19,415 nt of DNA from Candidatus Adiutrix sp. (lineage in GTDB: Bacteria; Desulfobacterota; Desulfarculia; Adiutricales; Adiutricaceae), in contig JAITVE010000133.1 in assembly GCA_031285975.1 (NCBI GenBank), forward strand, positions 1-19,415, written 5' to 3'. Shown one piece after another: positions 8,253-19,209 of the stretch. The translations under genes were made by a program, and so were the position numbers. The notes under the pieces were generated by a model, which was not told the DNA's origin, searched no databases, and saw only the letters and a list, made by a program, of their open reading frames with translations. Position 1 is the stretch's first letter. Each line of letters opens with the position of its first letter.

Positions 8253-9652
8253 TGAAAGACTTGCGCTTGACGCTGGCCTGGGCCCTGGAAAACTGCGGAG
8301 CCACCAATGTTGGTAACGGCCTGGAGGCCTTGAAGCGCAAGCACATAACCGGCGTCTCCACCGACAGCCGGACGGTCGCCAAAGGCGAAGTTTTCGTCGC
8401 CTTGGCTGGCGCAAATTTCGATGGCCATGACCATGCCGAAGAAGCCCTGAAAAAAGGCGCGCTGGCGGTCATTGCGCACAAACCTTTGACGGGTAACGCT
8501 TCGGCACTGGCAGTTACCGTGCCGGACACGCTGGTCGCGCTCGGCGACCTGGCCCGCGCCCTGCGACGCACACAAAATTTGAAGGTGTTGGGCCTGACCG
8601 GCTCCAACGGCAAAACCACCACCAAAGAAATGTTGAGCGCCATCCTGTCCTTGAAAGACAACGCGCTCCTGGCCACCAAAGGCAATTTCAACAACCTGGT
8701 GGGCCTGCCCCTGACCTTGTTCAGAGCGGCTAAAAACACCCGCACGGCAGTGCTGGAAATGGGCATGAACCACTTTGGCGAAATTGCCCGCCTCACCGAA
8801 ATTGCCGAGCCGGATGTGGGCCTGATAACCTCCGTCGGCCCGGCGCACCTGGAATTTTTCGGCACGGTCAGCCAGGTGGCCAAGGCCAAAGGCGAGTTGT
8901 ACCAAGGCCTCATGCCGTCAGCTGTGGCCGTGGTCAACAGCGACGAGCCGCTTCTGATGCGCGAAGCCAAACGCTTCGGCGGCAACAAATTGCTCTTCGG
9001 CGAAGGCCCGGCAGCCCAAGTCCGGGCCGGGCGGGCCAAGTCCCAGGGGCTGGGCCAGAGTTTCACCATCTATGGGCCGGGCGCGGAGAAGGGCCGTCGA
9101 GTTTCCTTGAAATTGCTCGGCCCGCACAACCTCCGCAACGCCCTGGCCGCCGCCGCCGCCGCCCTGGCTGTGGGCGCGGATTGGGATGAGATTGAAGCTG
9201 GGATCGCTGCGGCGGACAATTTTCCGGGACGCCTGTTTCCCTTGAAAACCAAGGGCGGTCTCCTGGTGCTGGACGACAGCTATAACGCCAACCCCGCCTC
9301 CATGGCGGCCGGGCTCAAAGTTTTGGCCGGGCTCAAAAGCAAGGTCAAGGGCGCGATTCTGGGCGACATGCTGGAACTGGGCCGCGCTGAAAACCCCGCC
9401 CACCGCGAAATTGGCCGTCTGGCCGCCGAGTTGAATTTGGATTTTCTGGCCGTGGTCGGGCCCCGTTCGCGCCACACCGTGGCCGCCGCCCGCCGGGCCG
9501 GGCTGGCCAAAGATATGACGGCAGAATTTGAAACGCCGCGCGAAGCCGCCGAGTGGGCGGCGGCAAAGGCGAAACGCGGCACGGCATTGTTGGTGAAGGG
9601 TTCGCGCTCCATGAAACTTGAAGGCGCGGTTGAATTTTTGAAGAATGTGTGA
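8252..9652 (+). CDS. murF: UDP-MurNAc-tripeptide:D-Ala-D-Ala ligase MurF
   Basis: MurF completes UDP-MurNAc-pentapeptide by adding D-Ala-D-Ala. The 466 residues contain STDSRTV in the N-domain, P-loop GSNGKTTT (117-124), GNFNNLVGLPLTL, EMGMNHFGEI, ITSVGPAHLEFF, DDSYNANPASM, GDMLELG and LVKGSRSMKLE, all typical of MurF and distinguishing it from MurC, MurD and MurE. Its start is fused to the murE stop (TGATG). The D-Ala-D-Ala ligase (ddl) that makes its substrate is not in this window. mraY begins 15 bases downstream. Confidence 0.96.
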   Translation: MKDLRLTLAWALENCGATNVGNGLEALKRKHITGVSTDSRTVAKGEVFVALAGANFDGHDHAEEALKKGALAVIAHKPLTGNASALAVTVPDTLVALGDLARALRRTQNLKVLGLTGSNGKTTTKEMLSAILSLKDNALLATKGNFNNLVGLPLTLFRAAKNTRTAVLEMGMNHFGEIARLTEIAEPDVGLITSVGPAHLEFFGTVSQVAKAKGELYQGLMPSAVAVVNSDEPLLMREAKRFGGNKLLFGEGPAAQVRAGRAKSQGLGQSFTIYGPGAEKGRRVSLKLLGPHNLRNALAAAAAALAVGADWDEIEAGIAAADNFPGRLFPLKTKGGLLVLDDSYNANPASMAAGLKVLAGLKSKVKGAILGDMLELGRAENPAHREIGRLAAELNLDFLAVVGPRSRHTVAAARRAGLAKDMTAEFETPREAAEWAAAKAKRGTALLVKGSRSMKLEGAVEFLKNV

Positions 9653-9667
9653 AAGTACTCGTAAAAA

Positions 9668-10747
9668 ATGCTGTATCATTTATTTTCATATTTGACCGAA
9701 GAAGTAACCTTCTTCAACGTCTTCAAATACCTGAGCTTCAGAAGCATTCTGGCGGCTTTCACCTCCATGAGCATTTGGTTCGCCTTCGGCCCGAAATTTA
9801 TCCGGCTGATTAAGGATTTTCAGATACAGCAATACATCCGCGAGGAAGGCCCGGAATCGCACAAGAAAAAATCTGGCACGCCCACCATGGGTGGGGTGCT
9901 GATTCTCGCGGCGGCTTTTATTTCAACGTTTTTGTGGTGTGACCTCCGGCAGCCCGCCGTCTGGCTCACCGTTTTCTGCGGCGGCCTGTACGCGGCCATC
10001 GGCTTCCACGATGATTTTTTGAAAATCAAGCGGAAGCACAACCAGGGCCTTTCAGCCCGCCAGAAACTTCTGGCGCAGTTCGCCATCGCCCTGGCCGTGG
10101 GGTGGTATCTCTATCAGTCGGAATGGTTTGACACGGTGCTGTATGTGCCGGTCATCAAGGAATTGAATTTTGACCTGGGGCTTCTCTACATTCCGTTCGC
10201 GGCCCTGGTCATTGTCGGGGCCTCCAACGCGGTGAATCTCACCGACGGCTTAGACGGGCTGGCGGCCGGGCCGATGGTCATCGCGGCGTTGAGTTACATG
10301 GTGTTCATCTATTGCGCGGGCAATGCCAAATTCGCGCAGTATCTTCAGATAACCTTTGTCCCGGAAGCGGCGGAAGTGACCGTTCTCCTGGCCGGGGTGG
10401 TGGGCGCGGTCATGGGATTCTTGTGGTACAACACCTATCCCGCGCAGATTTTCATGGGCGATGTGGGCTCGCTTTCATTGGGAGCAATATTGGGAGCCGT
10501 GGCCCTGGTCGCCAAGCAGGAACTGGTTCTAGTGGTGGTGGGCGGTTTGTTTGTGATGGAGGCCCTGTCGGTCATCATCCAGGTGGGGTATTTCAAACTG
10601 ACCGGAGGCCGTCGGGTTTTCAGGATGGCCCCGCTTCATCATCACTTTGAATTGAAAGGCTGGCCGGAGCCCAAGGTTATTGTGCGCTTCTGGATCATAG
10701 CCGTGATTTTAGCCATGATTGGATTGTCGACTTTGAAAGTCCGCTAA
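9668..10747 (+). CDS. mraY: Phospho-MurNAc-pentapeptide transferase MraY
   Basis: MraY transfers phospho-MurNAc-pentapeptide to undecaprenyl phosphate, making lipid I on the inner face of the membrane. The 359 residues are the usual length, with about ten membrane segments. Signatures are SGTPTMGGVLIL, the Mg-binding pair DD (115-116) in GFHDDFLKIKRKHNQGLS, NLTDGLDGLA (190-199), GDVGS with D265, and the HHH motif (324-326) in PLHHHFELKGWPE. The start aligns with the normal MLYHL N-terminus. Its ribosome binding site is very poor: the bases before ATG 9668 are GTAAAAA with only GAAAG further out. Translation may depend on coupling to murF 15 bases upstream. Confidence 0.96.
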   Translation: MLYHLFSYLTEEVTFFNVFKYLSFRSILAAFTSMSIWFAFGPKFIRLIKDFQIQQYIREEGPESHKKKSGTPTMGGVLILAAAFISTFLWCDLRQPAVWLTVFCGGLYAAIGFHDDFLKIKRKHNQGLSARQKLLAQFAIALAVGWYLYQSEWFDTVLYVPVIKELNFDLGLLYIPFAALVIVGASNAVNLTDGLDGLAAGPMVIAALSYMVFIYCAGNAKFAQYLQITFVPEAAEVTVLLAGVVGAVMGFLWYNTYPAQIFMGDVGSLSLGAILGAVALVAKQELVLVVVGGLFVMEALSVIIQVGYFKLTGGRRVFRMAPLHHHFELKGWPEPKVIVRFWIIAVILAMIGLSTLKVR

Positions 10748-14656: not shown

Positions 14657-16047
14657 TGTACCGCAAAAAGAGACACATCCACTTCGTGGGCATCGGCGGC
14701 ATTGGGATGAGCGGCATTGCCGAAGTGCTGATTAACCTGGGGCACCGGGTCAGCGGTTCGGACTTGAAGGCCAGCGACATCACCCGCCGCCTGGCCGAGT
14801 TGGGCGCGGAAGTGGTCATCGGCCACGGCGGGGTCAACGTGGGCGAAGCGGATGTGGTGGTGGTCTCCTCAGCGGTGTCGGACGACAACCCCGAAGTGGT
14901 GGCCGCGCGGCGGGCCTTCATTCCCGTCATTCCCCGCGCCGAAATGCTGGCCGAGCTGATGCGCCTGAAATCGGCGGTGGCCGTGGCCGGGAGCCACGGC
15001 AAAACCACCACCACCTCTCTCATCGGCACCATGCTGACCCGCGCCGGGCTCGACCCGACCCTGGTCATCGGCGGCAAGCTCAACCATTTGGGCGTGGGGG
15101 CCCGGCTGGGGCAGGGCGACTACATGGTGGCCGAGGCCGACGAGTCCGACGGCTCCTTTCTGCTCCTCACCCCCACGGTGGCCGTGGTCACCAACATCGA
15201 CCTGGAGCACCTCAATTATTACCACGGCCTGGATCATTTGAAGGAGACCTTTCTCAGCTTCATCAACAAAATCCCCTTCTACGGCTTTTCCGTGCTCTGC
15301 CTGGATGACCCCAATGTGCAGAGCCTTTTGCCGGGCGTGAAAAAGCGTTATCTGACCTACGGCCTGTCAGCCCAGGCGGAAATCTCGGCCCGCGACATTG
15401 AGTGCGGCCCCTGGGGCTATTCCTTTGAACTCAACCGCCTGGGGCGTGACCTGGGGCGCATTCTGGTGAACATCCCCGGCCGCCACAACGTTTTGAACGC
15501 CCTGGCGGCGGCGGCGGTGGGCCTGGAAATGGGCCTGGAACCGCAGATGGTCATCGACGGCCTGGCCGACATGAAGGGCGTGGCCCGCCGTTTCGAGAAA
15601 AAAGGCGAGGCCGGGGGCGTTATCGTCATTGACGATTACGGCCACCACCCCACGGAAATCAAGGCCACCCTTTCGGCCCTCAGCGACTGCTTTCCGGCCA
15701 ACCGCCGGGTGGTGGTGTTTCAGCCCCACCGCTACAGCCGCACCGAAAGCCTGTTCGATGAGTTCATCACCGCCTTCAACCAGGCCGACCGGCTTATCAT
15801 CACCGGCATCTATGCCGCCGGGGAGAAACCCGTCGCCGGAATCACCGGTCAGGCTTTGGCCGAAGCGGTGCGGCGGCACGGCCACCGGGACGTTTCCTAC
15901 CACGAGGACGTGTCCTCCTTGGCCGAGGCCGTGCGCGGCGAACTGGAACCCGGCGACGTCGTTTTGACCCTGGGGGCCGGGAACGTCCACACTGTGGGCG
16001 AAACCATTCTGCGGCTCATTGAAAAAAAGAGCGGGGGCTCCCGGTGA
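14656..16047 (+). CDS. murC: UDP-N-acetylmuramate:L-alanine ligase MurC
   Basis: MurC adds L-alanine to UDP-MurNAc, the first step of stem-peptide assembly. The 463 residues begin [20 protein letters not shown], the normal MurC Rossmann start. Then come [14 protein letters not shown]-loop GSHGKTTTT (112-120), [71 protein letters not shown] and [11 protein letters not shown] 14656 overlaps the murG stop by one base and has GGGGG upstream. The end overlaps the GTG start of murB by four bases (GTGA). Confidence 0.96.
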
Positions 16048-16994
16048 TTGACCGCCGTCCCTGGGACAGCCTGGCCTCGCGGCTCGGCGACCGCCTGATT
16101 TTCGGCGCGCCTTTGGCCGATTTGACCCGTTATGGCGTGGGCGGTTCCGCCGCGCTTCTGGCCCGCCCGGAGTCGGCGGAAGAAGTGCGCGACCTGCTGG
16201 CCGTGCGGAACGAGACGGGTTTGCCGCTCTCTATTCTGGGCGGCGGCAGCAACACGCTGTTCACCGAGGCCGGTTTCGCGGGCCTGGTGATGCGCATCGG
16301 CCAGGGCTTCCAGGTTGTGGAAGCCTTGGGAGACACTGGCTTGCGGGCCGGGGCGGGGGCCCACACCGCCGCCGTGGCGGAAGCTGCGGCCGAACGGGGT
16401 TTGCGCGGGCTGGAAGGCTTGGCGGGCATCCCGGGCCGCTTCGGCGGGGCCTTGATGATGAACGCCGGAAGTTTTGGCCAGGATGTCGGTTCATGCGTGG
16501 AAAGGCTGTTCGGCCTCGACGCTCAGGGCCGCGAATTTTCGCTGGGCAAAGCGGAATTGCGCTACGAATACCGCCGCCTGTCCGGCCTAGCCGAAGGCGC
16601 GGTGCTGCTCGGCGCGGAATTGCGGCTGGAAGCGGGCCACCCCGAAGATATTAAAAGAACGGTGGCCGAAAACCTGGCCCGCCGCTCCGCCAGCCAGCCC
16701 AAGGGTTTTCGCTCGGCGGGGAGCGTTTTTAAAAATCCTGCCGGGCACTCCGCCGGGCGGCTCATTGAAGAGTGCGGCTTGAAGGGCGCGACAATCGGCG
16801 GGGCTGCGGTCAGCGAAGTGCACGCCAATTTTATTGTGGTTCAGGGAAAGGCCGAAAGCGGCCATATTCTGGAACTGGTGGACAAAATCCGCGCGGCGGT
16901 GTATAACCAGCGCGGCGTGGTTTTGGAACCTGAGATAAAAATCATCGGCCCCACCGGGCCGCTCACCCTGGCCAGCCCGGGGGGTGGCCAATGA
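16044..16994 (+). CDS. murB: UDP-N-acetylenolpyruvoylglucosamine reductase MurB
   Basis: MurB reduces UDP-GlcNAc-enolpyruvate to UDP-MurNAc using FAD and NADPH. The 316 residues show TRYGVGG (28-34), the FAD-binding [10 protein letters not shown], and [21 protein letters not shown]. They also show YEYRRLS, the catalytic serine S227 in [20 protein letters not shown] and the terminal catalytic glutamate E297 in LEPEIKIIG. The compact AGSVFKNP form resembles type II (Bacillus/Staphylococcus-like) MurB. The start is GTG 16044 inside the murC stop (GTGA), with GGGGG (16033-16037) upstream. The end overlaps ftsQ by four bases (ATGA). No ddl separates it from ftsQ. Confidence 0.95.
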
Positions 16995-17581
16995 TGGGCC
17001 GTGAATCGCGGGGCCGTTCCGGCCGCGGCGAACTGCGCTACGCCCGCAGCGGCAAAGTGCAGCGGCGCAAGCCCAAAAACGGCGAGGCCGCCGCGCCGGG
17101 CCTGGCCCGCAGGCTGGTTAAGCGCAGCTTCAAGCTGGCCGGGCGCGGGCTGAAATACACCATCACCGGGCTGTTGACGGCCGTGGTCATGGTGGCCGTG
17201 TCGGCCCTTTTGGTGGCCGGGTATTTGTATGTTTCGAACTCTGATTATTTTGCCGTGAAGAAGATTACCATTTATGGTCTCAATCAGATTTCGCGGGAAG
17301 AAGTTCTGGCCGTGACCGGCTTGAATCAGCCGGTCAATATCCTTACCTTTAACCTCAAGGACGCGGAGAGCCGCTTGAGCGCCCTGCCGTGGATGGCCGA
17401 GGCCAAGGTGTCCCGCAAAATGCCGGACATGGTGTCCATCGAGGTGCGGGAGCACACCCCGAAACTGTTGGTCAGCCTGGGGCGGCTGTATTACCTCAAC
17501 GAAGAGGGAGTGCCCTTCAAGGATTTAACTCCCGGCGAACGGCCCGACCTCCCGGTGGTCACCGGCTTTGTGGAAGACTAA
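16991..17581 (+). CDS. ftsQ: Cell division protein FtsQ, N-terminal part, ended by an in-frame TAA
   Basis: FtsQ is a bitopic divisome scaffold that recruits FtsL/FtsB. These 196 residues hold a basic cytoplasmic tail (1-56), one membrane segment (about 57-80), a POTRA domain (about 87-155, from YFAVKKITIYGLNQISREEVL to VSIEVREHTP) and the start of the beta domain (VSLGRLYYLNEEGVPF, then LPVVTGF). The TAA at 17579-17581 then ends the frame, although complete FtsQ proteins continue about 110 residues. The same frame resumes directly after the TAA with the missing C-terminal part, so only one codon breaks a 306-codon gene. The start ATG 16991 overlaps the murB stop (ATGA). Without the beta domain, FtsB/FtsL binding should be lost. 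Confidence 0.9.
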   Translation: MMGRESRGRSGRGELRYARSGKVQRRKPKNGEAAAPGLARRLVKRSFKLAGRGLKYTITGLLTAVVMVAVSALLVAGYLYVSNSDYFAVKKITIYGLNQISREEVLAVTGLNQPVNILTFNLKDAESRLSALPWMAEAKVSRKMPDMVSIEVREHTPKLLVSLGRLYYLNEEGVPFKDLTPGERPDLPVVTGFVED

Positions 17582-17584
17582 CTG

Positions 17585-17908
17585 TTGAACCCCGGCCCGG
17601 CGGTGAAAAAGGCCATGGAGGAAATCTTCTGGCTGGTGGGGGCCCTGACCCAGCGGAACGACGAGTTCCAACTGGCCAACGTCTCTGAAATCAACTACGA
17701 CGCGGTGCGGGGCCTGAGCCTTTTCACCAAGTCCAGCGGCCTGGAAGTGAAAATCGGCTTCGGGTCGTACGAGGAAAAATTCCGCCGCCTGGGACGGGTT
17801 ATGGCCCATCTCAAGCTGAACGGCAAAACCGACGGCCTGGTCTACCTCAATCTTGAGGCCAGCCCCAGGGTCACCGTCCGCTACAATGAAAGTTTTACTA
17901 ACGGCTGA
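17585..17908 (+). CDS. ftsQ: FtsQ C-terminal (beta domain) part, same frame after the TAA
   Basis: The frame continues from the TAA through CTG (17582) and TTG (17585) for 107 residues. It contains VSEINYDAVRGLSLFTK, LEVKIGFGSYEEKFRRLGRVM and VYLNLEASPRVTVRYN, matching the C-terminal FtsQ/DivIB pattern (SEI, a short beta hairpin, LG...K, then a final DL-p-rV-VR strand). A TTG restart is conceivable because GGAAG (17572-17576) lies eight bases upstream, and ATG 17614 is a later option. However, a separately made fragment would have no membrane anchor or signal and would stay in the cytoplasm, away from its normal site. Readthrough, a sequencing error or a recent nonsense mutation is therefore more plausible than a working split gene. 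Confidence 0.75.
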   Translation: MNPGPAVKKAMEEIFWLVGALTQRNDEFQLANVSEINYDAVRGLSLFTKSSGLEVKIGFGSYEEKFRRLGRVMAHLKLNGKTDGLVYLNLEASPRVTVRYNESFTNG

Positions 17909-17973: not shown

Positions 17974-19209
17974 ATGTCAAGTGGAGATTTAATTTTCGGT
18001 CTGGATATCGGCACCACTAAAATTTGCTGCGTGGTGGGGGAACCCAATGACGAAGGCGGCGTGGATATCGTCGGCATCGGCAGCCACCCCTCGCAGGGTT
18101 TGCGCAAAGGCGCGGTGGTGAATATCGAACGCACTGTGGAGTCCATCAAGCGGGCCGTGGAAGAGGCCGAGCTCATGGCCGGCTGCGAGATCACCGAAGT
18201 GTACGTGGGCATCGCCGGCGGGCACATCGAGGGCCGCAACAGCCAGGGGGTCATCGCCATCAAGAACCGCGAGGTCTCCCCGCAGGACGTGGAGCGCGTG
18301 CTGGAGGCCGCCAAGGCCCTGGCCATTCCCATGGATAGAGAAGTCATCCACACCATTCCCCAGGAATTCATCGTCGACAGCCAGGGCGGCATTCAAGACC
18401 CGGTGGGCATGAGCGGCGTGCGGCTGGAGGCCAAGGTGCACATCGTCACCGGCGCGGCCACCAGCGCGCAGAACCTCATCCGCTGCGCCCACATGGCCGA
18501 CCTGGACGTGTGCGACATCGTGCTGGAATCCGTGGCCTCGGCCGACGCGGTCTTGACCCAGGAAGAAAAAGACCTGGGCGTGGCCCTGTTGGACTTCGGC
18601 GGCGGCACCGTGGATTTGGCCATCTTTTCCCAAAACAGCATCAAGCACACCTCGGTTTTGGCCCTCGGCGGCACCCACCTGACCAACGACGTGGCCGTGG
18701 GCCTGCGCACCCCCACCAACGCGGCTGAGGAAATTAAGAAAAATTTCGGCTGCTGCCTCACCTCGATGATCTCGGAGGAACAGATGATCGAAGTGGCTTC
18801 GGTGGGCGGCCGCCCGCCGAGAATGCTCAGCCGCATGGTGCTGGCCGACATTCTGGAACTGCGGGTGGAAGAGATTATGATGCTCATCAACCGCGAACTG
18901 ATGAAAAGCGGCTACGACGACCAGCTCAACAGCGGCGTGGTCATCACCGGCGGCGCGGCGCTTCTGGAGGGAGTGCCGGAACTGGCCGAACAGGTGTTCG
19001 ACCTGCCCGTGCGGCGGGGCTATCCCCGCAATATCGGCGGCCTGACCGACGTCATCAACGACCCCAAATACGCCACGGCCGTGGGCCTGGTCTTATACGG
19101 GCTGCATAAGGAAGGCGGGCAGGCTGAAAAAGAGTTCCGCCGCCGGGGCGGCAGCGGCTTCGGCCAGGTGCTCAACCGCATGAAAAATTGGTTTAAGGAA
19201 ATAGTTTAA
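17974..19209 (+). CDS. ftsA: Cell division protein FtsA
   Basis: FtsA is the actin-like ATPase that tethers FtsZ filaments to the membrane and recruits later divisome proteins. The 411 residues show phosphate-1 motif GLDIGTTKICC (9-19) and the 1C domain region (GLRKGAVVNIERTVESIKRAVEEAE to GGHIEGRNSQGVI). They also show LLDFGGGTVDLAIF (phosphate 2), the GGTHLTNDVAVGL stretch, and the adenosine motif VVITGGAALLEGVPELAE. The C-terminus FGQVLNRMKNWFKEIV is the expected amphipathic membrane-targeting helix. ATG 17974 has GGAGG (17960-17964) nine bases upstream. All expected motifs are intact, in contrast to the interrupted ftsQ next to it. Confidence 0.96.
   Translation: MSSGDLIFGLDIGTTKICCVVGEPNDEGGVDIVGIGSHPSQGLRKGAVVNIERTVESIKRAVEEAELMAGCEITEVYVGIAGGHIEGRNSQGVIAIKNREVSPQDVERVLEAAKALAIPMDREVIHTIPQEFIVDSQGGIQDPVGMSGVRLEAKVHIVTGAATSAQNLIRCAHMADLDVCDIVLESVASADAVLTQEEKDLGVALLDFGGGTVDLAIFSQNSIKHTSVLALGGTHLTNDVAVGLRTPTNAAEEIKKNFGCCLTSMISEEQMIEVASVGGRPPRMLSRMVLADILELRVEEIMMLINRELMKSGYDDQLNSGVVITGGAALLEGVPELAEQVFDLPVRRGYPRNIGGLTDVINDPKYATAVGLVLYGLHKEGGQAEKEFRRRGGSGFGQVLNRMKNWFKEIV

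Follow-up and report, generated by a model that had tools for sequence, protein, structure and literature searches.

The ftsQ frame of the window, the whole 19,415-nucleotide stretch of DNA analysed here, is interrupted by one in-frame TAA. This codon is probably a lone substitution private to the assembled sequence, either an error in the consensus or the allele of a minor strain, with FtsQ remaining an ordinary protein in the cell. The open reading frames of the window bear out the layout given by the sequence-only reading: from ATG 16991 the frame runs for 196 codons to a TAA at 17579-17581 and continues in phase through 108 sense codons to a stop at 17906-17908, which together give the 306 codons (final stop included) that it had counted. 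Directly behind the TAA stand CTG 17582 and TTG 17585, and the base after the stop is C. The frame, 16991-17908 on the plus strand, and its neighbours are as follows.

16044..16994, plus strand: putative murB, open, 316 aa, overlapping the start of ftsQ; named by sequence and cluster order
16991..17578, plus strand: first piece of ftsQ, 196 codons; it comprises the N-terminus with a probable membrane helix, the POTRA domain and the opening strands of the beta domain
17579..17581, plus strand: in-frame TAA; the relatives read encode Asp or Glu at this codon
17582..17908, plus strand: second piece of ftsQ, 108 codons and the final stop; remainder of the beta domain, by its FtsQ_DivIB_C match and its conservation
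17974..19209, plus strand: putative ftsA, open, 411 aa, with a strong predicted ribosome-binding site of its own (-10.8 kcal/mol); named by sequence and position

None of the window's remaining long cell-wall and division ORFs is interrupted. Among the cluster genes, MraZ and MraW were identified by Pfam and the others by sequence and order alone. On the minus strand (95-1150), close to where the division cluster begins, the window also encodes an FRG-domain protein (PF08867, 57.9 bits).

Both pieces of the frame had been described as FtsQ-like, and the domain searches agree. In Pfam, the first piece contains POTRA_1 (PF08478; 62.5 bits against a cut-off of 23, residues 87-155), and the second piece alone matches FtsQ_DivIB_C (PF03799) with 24.3 bits (cut-off 21), a score that rises to 38.4 bits over residues 164-276 when the whole frame is searched with X at the stop. 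This X-containing frame also aligns over its full length with the intact FtsQ of relatives, the nearest of which is 65% identical. Judging from the domain matches and this alignment, the assignment of the split frame to ftsQ is beyond chance. The TAA does not, as had been supposed, mark the boundary between the POTRA and beta domains, because it cuts the FtsQ_DivIB_C match at 164-276 and so falls inside the beta domain. We also examined the predicted structure of FtsQ from the nearest named relative (locus L034; mean pLDDT 86.0, pTM 0.66), whose eight best PDB matches are all FtsQ entries (top 6h9o_C, E 3.7e-12). The site equivalent to the TAA, residue 163 by alignment, lies within a predicted helix (161-165) of the beta domain, and the model has two helices and five strands C-terminal to it. 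A probable N-terminal membrane helix is indicated by a hydrophobic stretch in the window's ftsQ sequence and by helix 4-49 of the model. The window's gene thus resembles FtsQ/DivIB in having both domains, in its place between murB and ftsA in the division cluster and in its length, 305 residues once the stop is counted as sense. It departs from FtsQ/DivIB in that its frame is not a single open one, the in-frame TAA in the beta domain being absent from every relative examined.

Among the genomes examined, the TAA is private to the window's own. In a search of the order with the FtsQ alignment, ftsQ matches were found in 39 of 41 genomes and an internal stop in the window's genome (G000) only; none of the other 38 matches contains a stop, and 37 of them cover the site, the match in G032 being the exception. 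In a wider genome set (ftsQ match in 57 of 60), stops were reported in G000 and G039 only, and we rejected G039 as a second case because its TGA is upstream of its ATG start. The sequence-only reading had proposed aligning ftsQ of the closest genomes at this codon, and the relatives read have a sense codon there, one half of its criterion for a simple mutation (the other half being that no peptide spans the site): all 24 of the 29 relative loci counted encode Asp or Glu, and of the five loci left out of the count, L006 and L015 were read separately (both Glu) and L021, L022 and L026 had their codon unread. Within the genus, all five other members with an ftsQ match have Asp or Glu at the site, and the sixth, G005 (71% complete), gave no ftsQ match. 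The named records encoding relatives of the window's FtsQ come from Candidatus Adiutrix genomes, Smac51 and other Deltaproteobacteria bins; the window's genome itself belongs to the genus of Candidatus Adiutrix, which lives in termite guts.

We then compared the parts of the gene on either side of the stop. Against the nearest relative, identity was 73/113 before the stop (residues 84-195) and 80/103 behind it, with pN values of 0.235 and 0.163 and pS values of 0.611 and 0.662, respectively. None of four comparisons within the genus (0/4) showed a raised pN/pS behind the stop. At positions fixed in ten other aligned sequences, the window deviates in 0/23 cases before the stop and 1/23 behind it; at positions fixed within the genus, it deviates in 2/47 and 4/59. 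The part behind the stop thus appears to be conserved like the part before it, with no clear sign of decay, which suggests that the TAA is recent or not real.

Taken together, we favour the view that the TAA would be a single substitution, private to the assembled sequence, within an otherwise normal and constrained ftsQ. Its source would most likely be a consensus error, or the allele of a minor strain taken up into a fragmentary metagenome-assembled genome, and the living cell would then have a sense codon at the site and make FtsQ as one ordinary protein. Isolated nonsense stops are common in draft and metagenome-assembled genomes, and the ftsQ TAA resembles them in being single, in lying in a conserved gene, in being private to one assembly and in having counterparts elsewhere in that assembly. 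On this account, recoding should not be read into a lone in-frame stop of a fragmentary genome, and the case as it stands matters little.

The main competing possibility, which we consider appreciable though clearly less probable, is a true and recent nonsense mutation in the sampled population, by which FtsQ would be cut to 196 residues in a lineage that is either unfit or tolerant of FtsQ loss. One substitution would be enough, and an endosymbiotic life, such as that of the genus member Ca. Adiutrix intracellularis, can relax selection. That species is described as an endosymbiont of a termite-gut flagellate in excerpts of PMC7608387; however, it has an open ftsQ itself, and the rest of the window's division ORFs are open as well. 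The two helices and five strands that the relative's model places behind the stop also argue against such a mutation, as does the report, in excerpts of PMC6134095, that residues 257-276 of E. coli FtsQ are dispensable and that shorter truncations are less stable. The same excerpts call E. coli FtsQ essential (PMC6134095). Given that reported essentiality and the uninterrupted ORFs on either side, we judge a true mutation less likely than an error or a minor allele.

The window corresponds to contig C132; its genome is spread over 417 contigs and is 77.91% complete with 3.1% contamination. A stricter codon-usage scan for same-frame stops, covering 81 of the 417 contigs (510,037 bases), returned 17 candidates; the same scan gave 9 candidates in 20 stretches of G003 (400,000 bases) and 13 in 20 stretches of G006 (249,847 bases), the latter being neighbouring genes by eye, with L163:5741 doubtful. 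Of the 39 candidates, family or relative tests were applied to ftsQ, L095, L136, L146, L119 and L126, and the other 33 were judged by eye to be neighbouring genes. Isolated in-frame stops do occur elsewhere in the window's assembly. At 518-520 of L095 (G000:C40), an in-frame TAG cuts a solute-binding gene (SBP_bac_5) into pieces matching profile positions 1-139 and 144-358, and at 4747-4749 of L136 (G000:C61), another cuts an alpha-2-macroglobulin gene; here both pieces align in a single frame with one and the same locus in each of two relatives, G003 and G005. For a third TAG in the same genome, at 2686 of L146, the tests matched no family and no relative. Such further stops would suit a true nonsense mutation in ftsQ as well as an assembly error. 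In a control on ABC transporters (PF00005), no internal stop was found among the matches listed, the window's genome included, which speaks against the error reading. Unlike the stops in L095, L136 and L146, which are all TAG, the ftsQ stop is TAA and lies in a gene essential in E. coli; if a UAG-reading system were encoded in the missing part of the genome, these three TAGs would have no bearing on assembly quality. The error reading is also weakened by G003, which is assembled in 3 contigs and yet has two in-frame TAGs in 400,000 bases, including one in a gene typical of pyrrolysine use.

Functional readthrough, by which some of the ribosomes reaching the UAA would insert a residue and so give short and full-length FtsQ, is unlikely in our estimate, even with the conserved frame behind the stop and the C that follows it. 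FtsQ is scarce in E. coli (about 50 to 250 copies per cell, according to excerpts of PMC6134095), so little full-length product could suffice. In 81 sampled contigs of the window's genome, TAA terminates 143 of the 356 long ORFs, with C as the next base (TAAC) in 21 of them, which makes UAA an ordinary terminator, and UAAC an ordinary context, here. Following the proposal that release factors and suppressor tRNAs be checked, we found two release-factor genes, which from sequence motifs we take to be RF1 (L195) and RF2 (L187). Neither a UUA nor a CUA anticodon was found among 23 tRNAs (ARAGORN on tRNA-match loci of the incomplete genome), a set that is itself partial, since several amino acids have no tRNA in the list. 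As to a stimulatory RNA structure, the 120 bases behind the stop folded no better than shuffled sequences (z = -0.22; pseudoknots lay outside this test), and an internal stop in ftsQ was seen in none of the order's 38 other genomes with a match. A literature search on stop readthrough, which drew on sources available in part, returned nothing of use. A narrower version, in which real, low-level readthrough would yield mainly a short FtsQ that keeps its POTRA domain intact, together with a little full-length protein, so that termination efficiency would set the amount of division complex, strikes us as very unlikely. Should the stop prove genuine and full-length FtsQ be produced, ftsQ would exemplify UAA readthrough in a cell-division gene. 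Genome-wide reading of UAA as sense is more improbable than any of the other accounts, to the point of being negligible: nothing beyond the single ftsQ case speaks for it, whereas the 143 long ORFs that end in TAA speak against it, as does the observation that, among the in-frame stops judged intragenic in the scan, only that of ftsQ is TAA.

Could ftsQ instead be a true split gene, with translation restarting at TTG 17585 or ATG 17615 and two polypeptides acting together? The TTG is separated from the stop by a single codon and has GGAAG upstream; for the ATG, anti-Shine-Dalgarno pairing is predicted at -6.3 kcal/mol, somewhat better than the -3.3 kcal/mol of the TTG. The latter value compares poorly with the predicted ribosome-binding energies of ftsQ (-10.7 kcal/mol) and of ftsA, though several other starts in the window are as weak or weaker. 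The break falls inside the beta domain. The second piece, having no evident membrane helix, would be expected to remain cytoplasmic, and the ftsQ matches of the order's other genomes are free of internal stops. We therefore regard a split gene as highly improbable. Of the four options that the sequence-only reading had listed, a base error and a nonsense mutation fit these results, and readthrough and a split gene received little support from them.

Finally, we asked how the ftsQ stop relates to pyrrolysine decoding, which is found in the genus. The pyrrolysine system reads UAG, not UAA. In the genus, the pyrrolysine ligase model scored above its cut-off only in G003 and G005, which also have TAG-bearing MttB genes: in G003, an MttB-family gene (L126, G003:C1:1980001-2000000, 8628-10229) has an in-frame TAG cutting the Pfam domain, and both genomes have further MttB matches with an in-frame TAG. 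In the 77.9% complete G000, neither a match to the pyrrolysyl-tRNA ligase nor a TAG-bearing gene among its five MttB matches (0/5) was found, which counts further against readthrough in ftsQ. The ftsQ case differs from pyrrolysine decoding in this respect, in its codon and in that the gene is not a methyltransferase, and we rejected pyrrolysine readthrough of this stop on the codon and on the ligase and MttB results from the incomplete G000. The single paper found to name both Adiutrix and pyrrolysine is, going by its title, about Bathyarchaeia. At 12498-12500 of L119 (G003:C1:220001-240000), an in-frame TAG interrupts a gene for peptide methionine sulfoxide reductase, with the cut falling between positions 100 and 103 of the profile; this TAG may be either a pyrrolysine codon outside the methylamine genes or a nonsense mutation. 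Two further MttB-family matches of G003 (G003:C1:3409029-3410480 and G003:C1:3334557-3335990) have an in-frame TGA inside, which may encode selenocysteine, be a stop lying ahead of the true start, or reflect decay.
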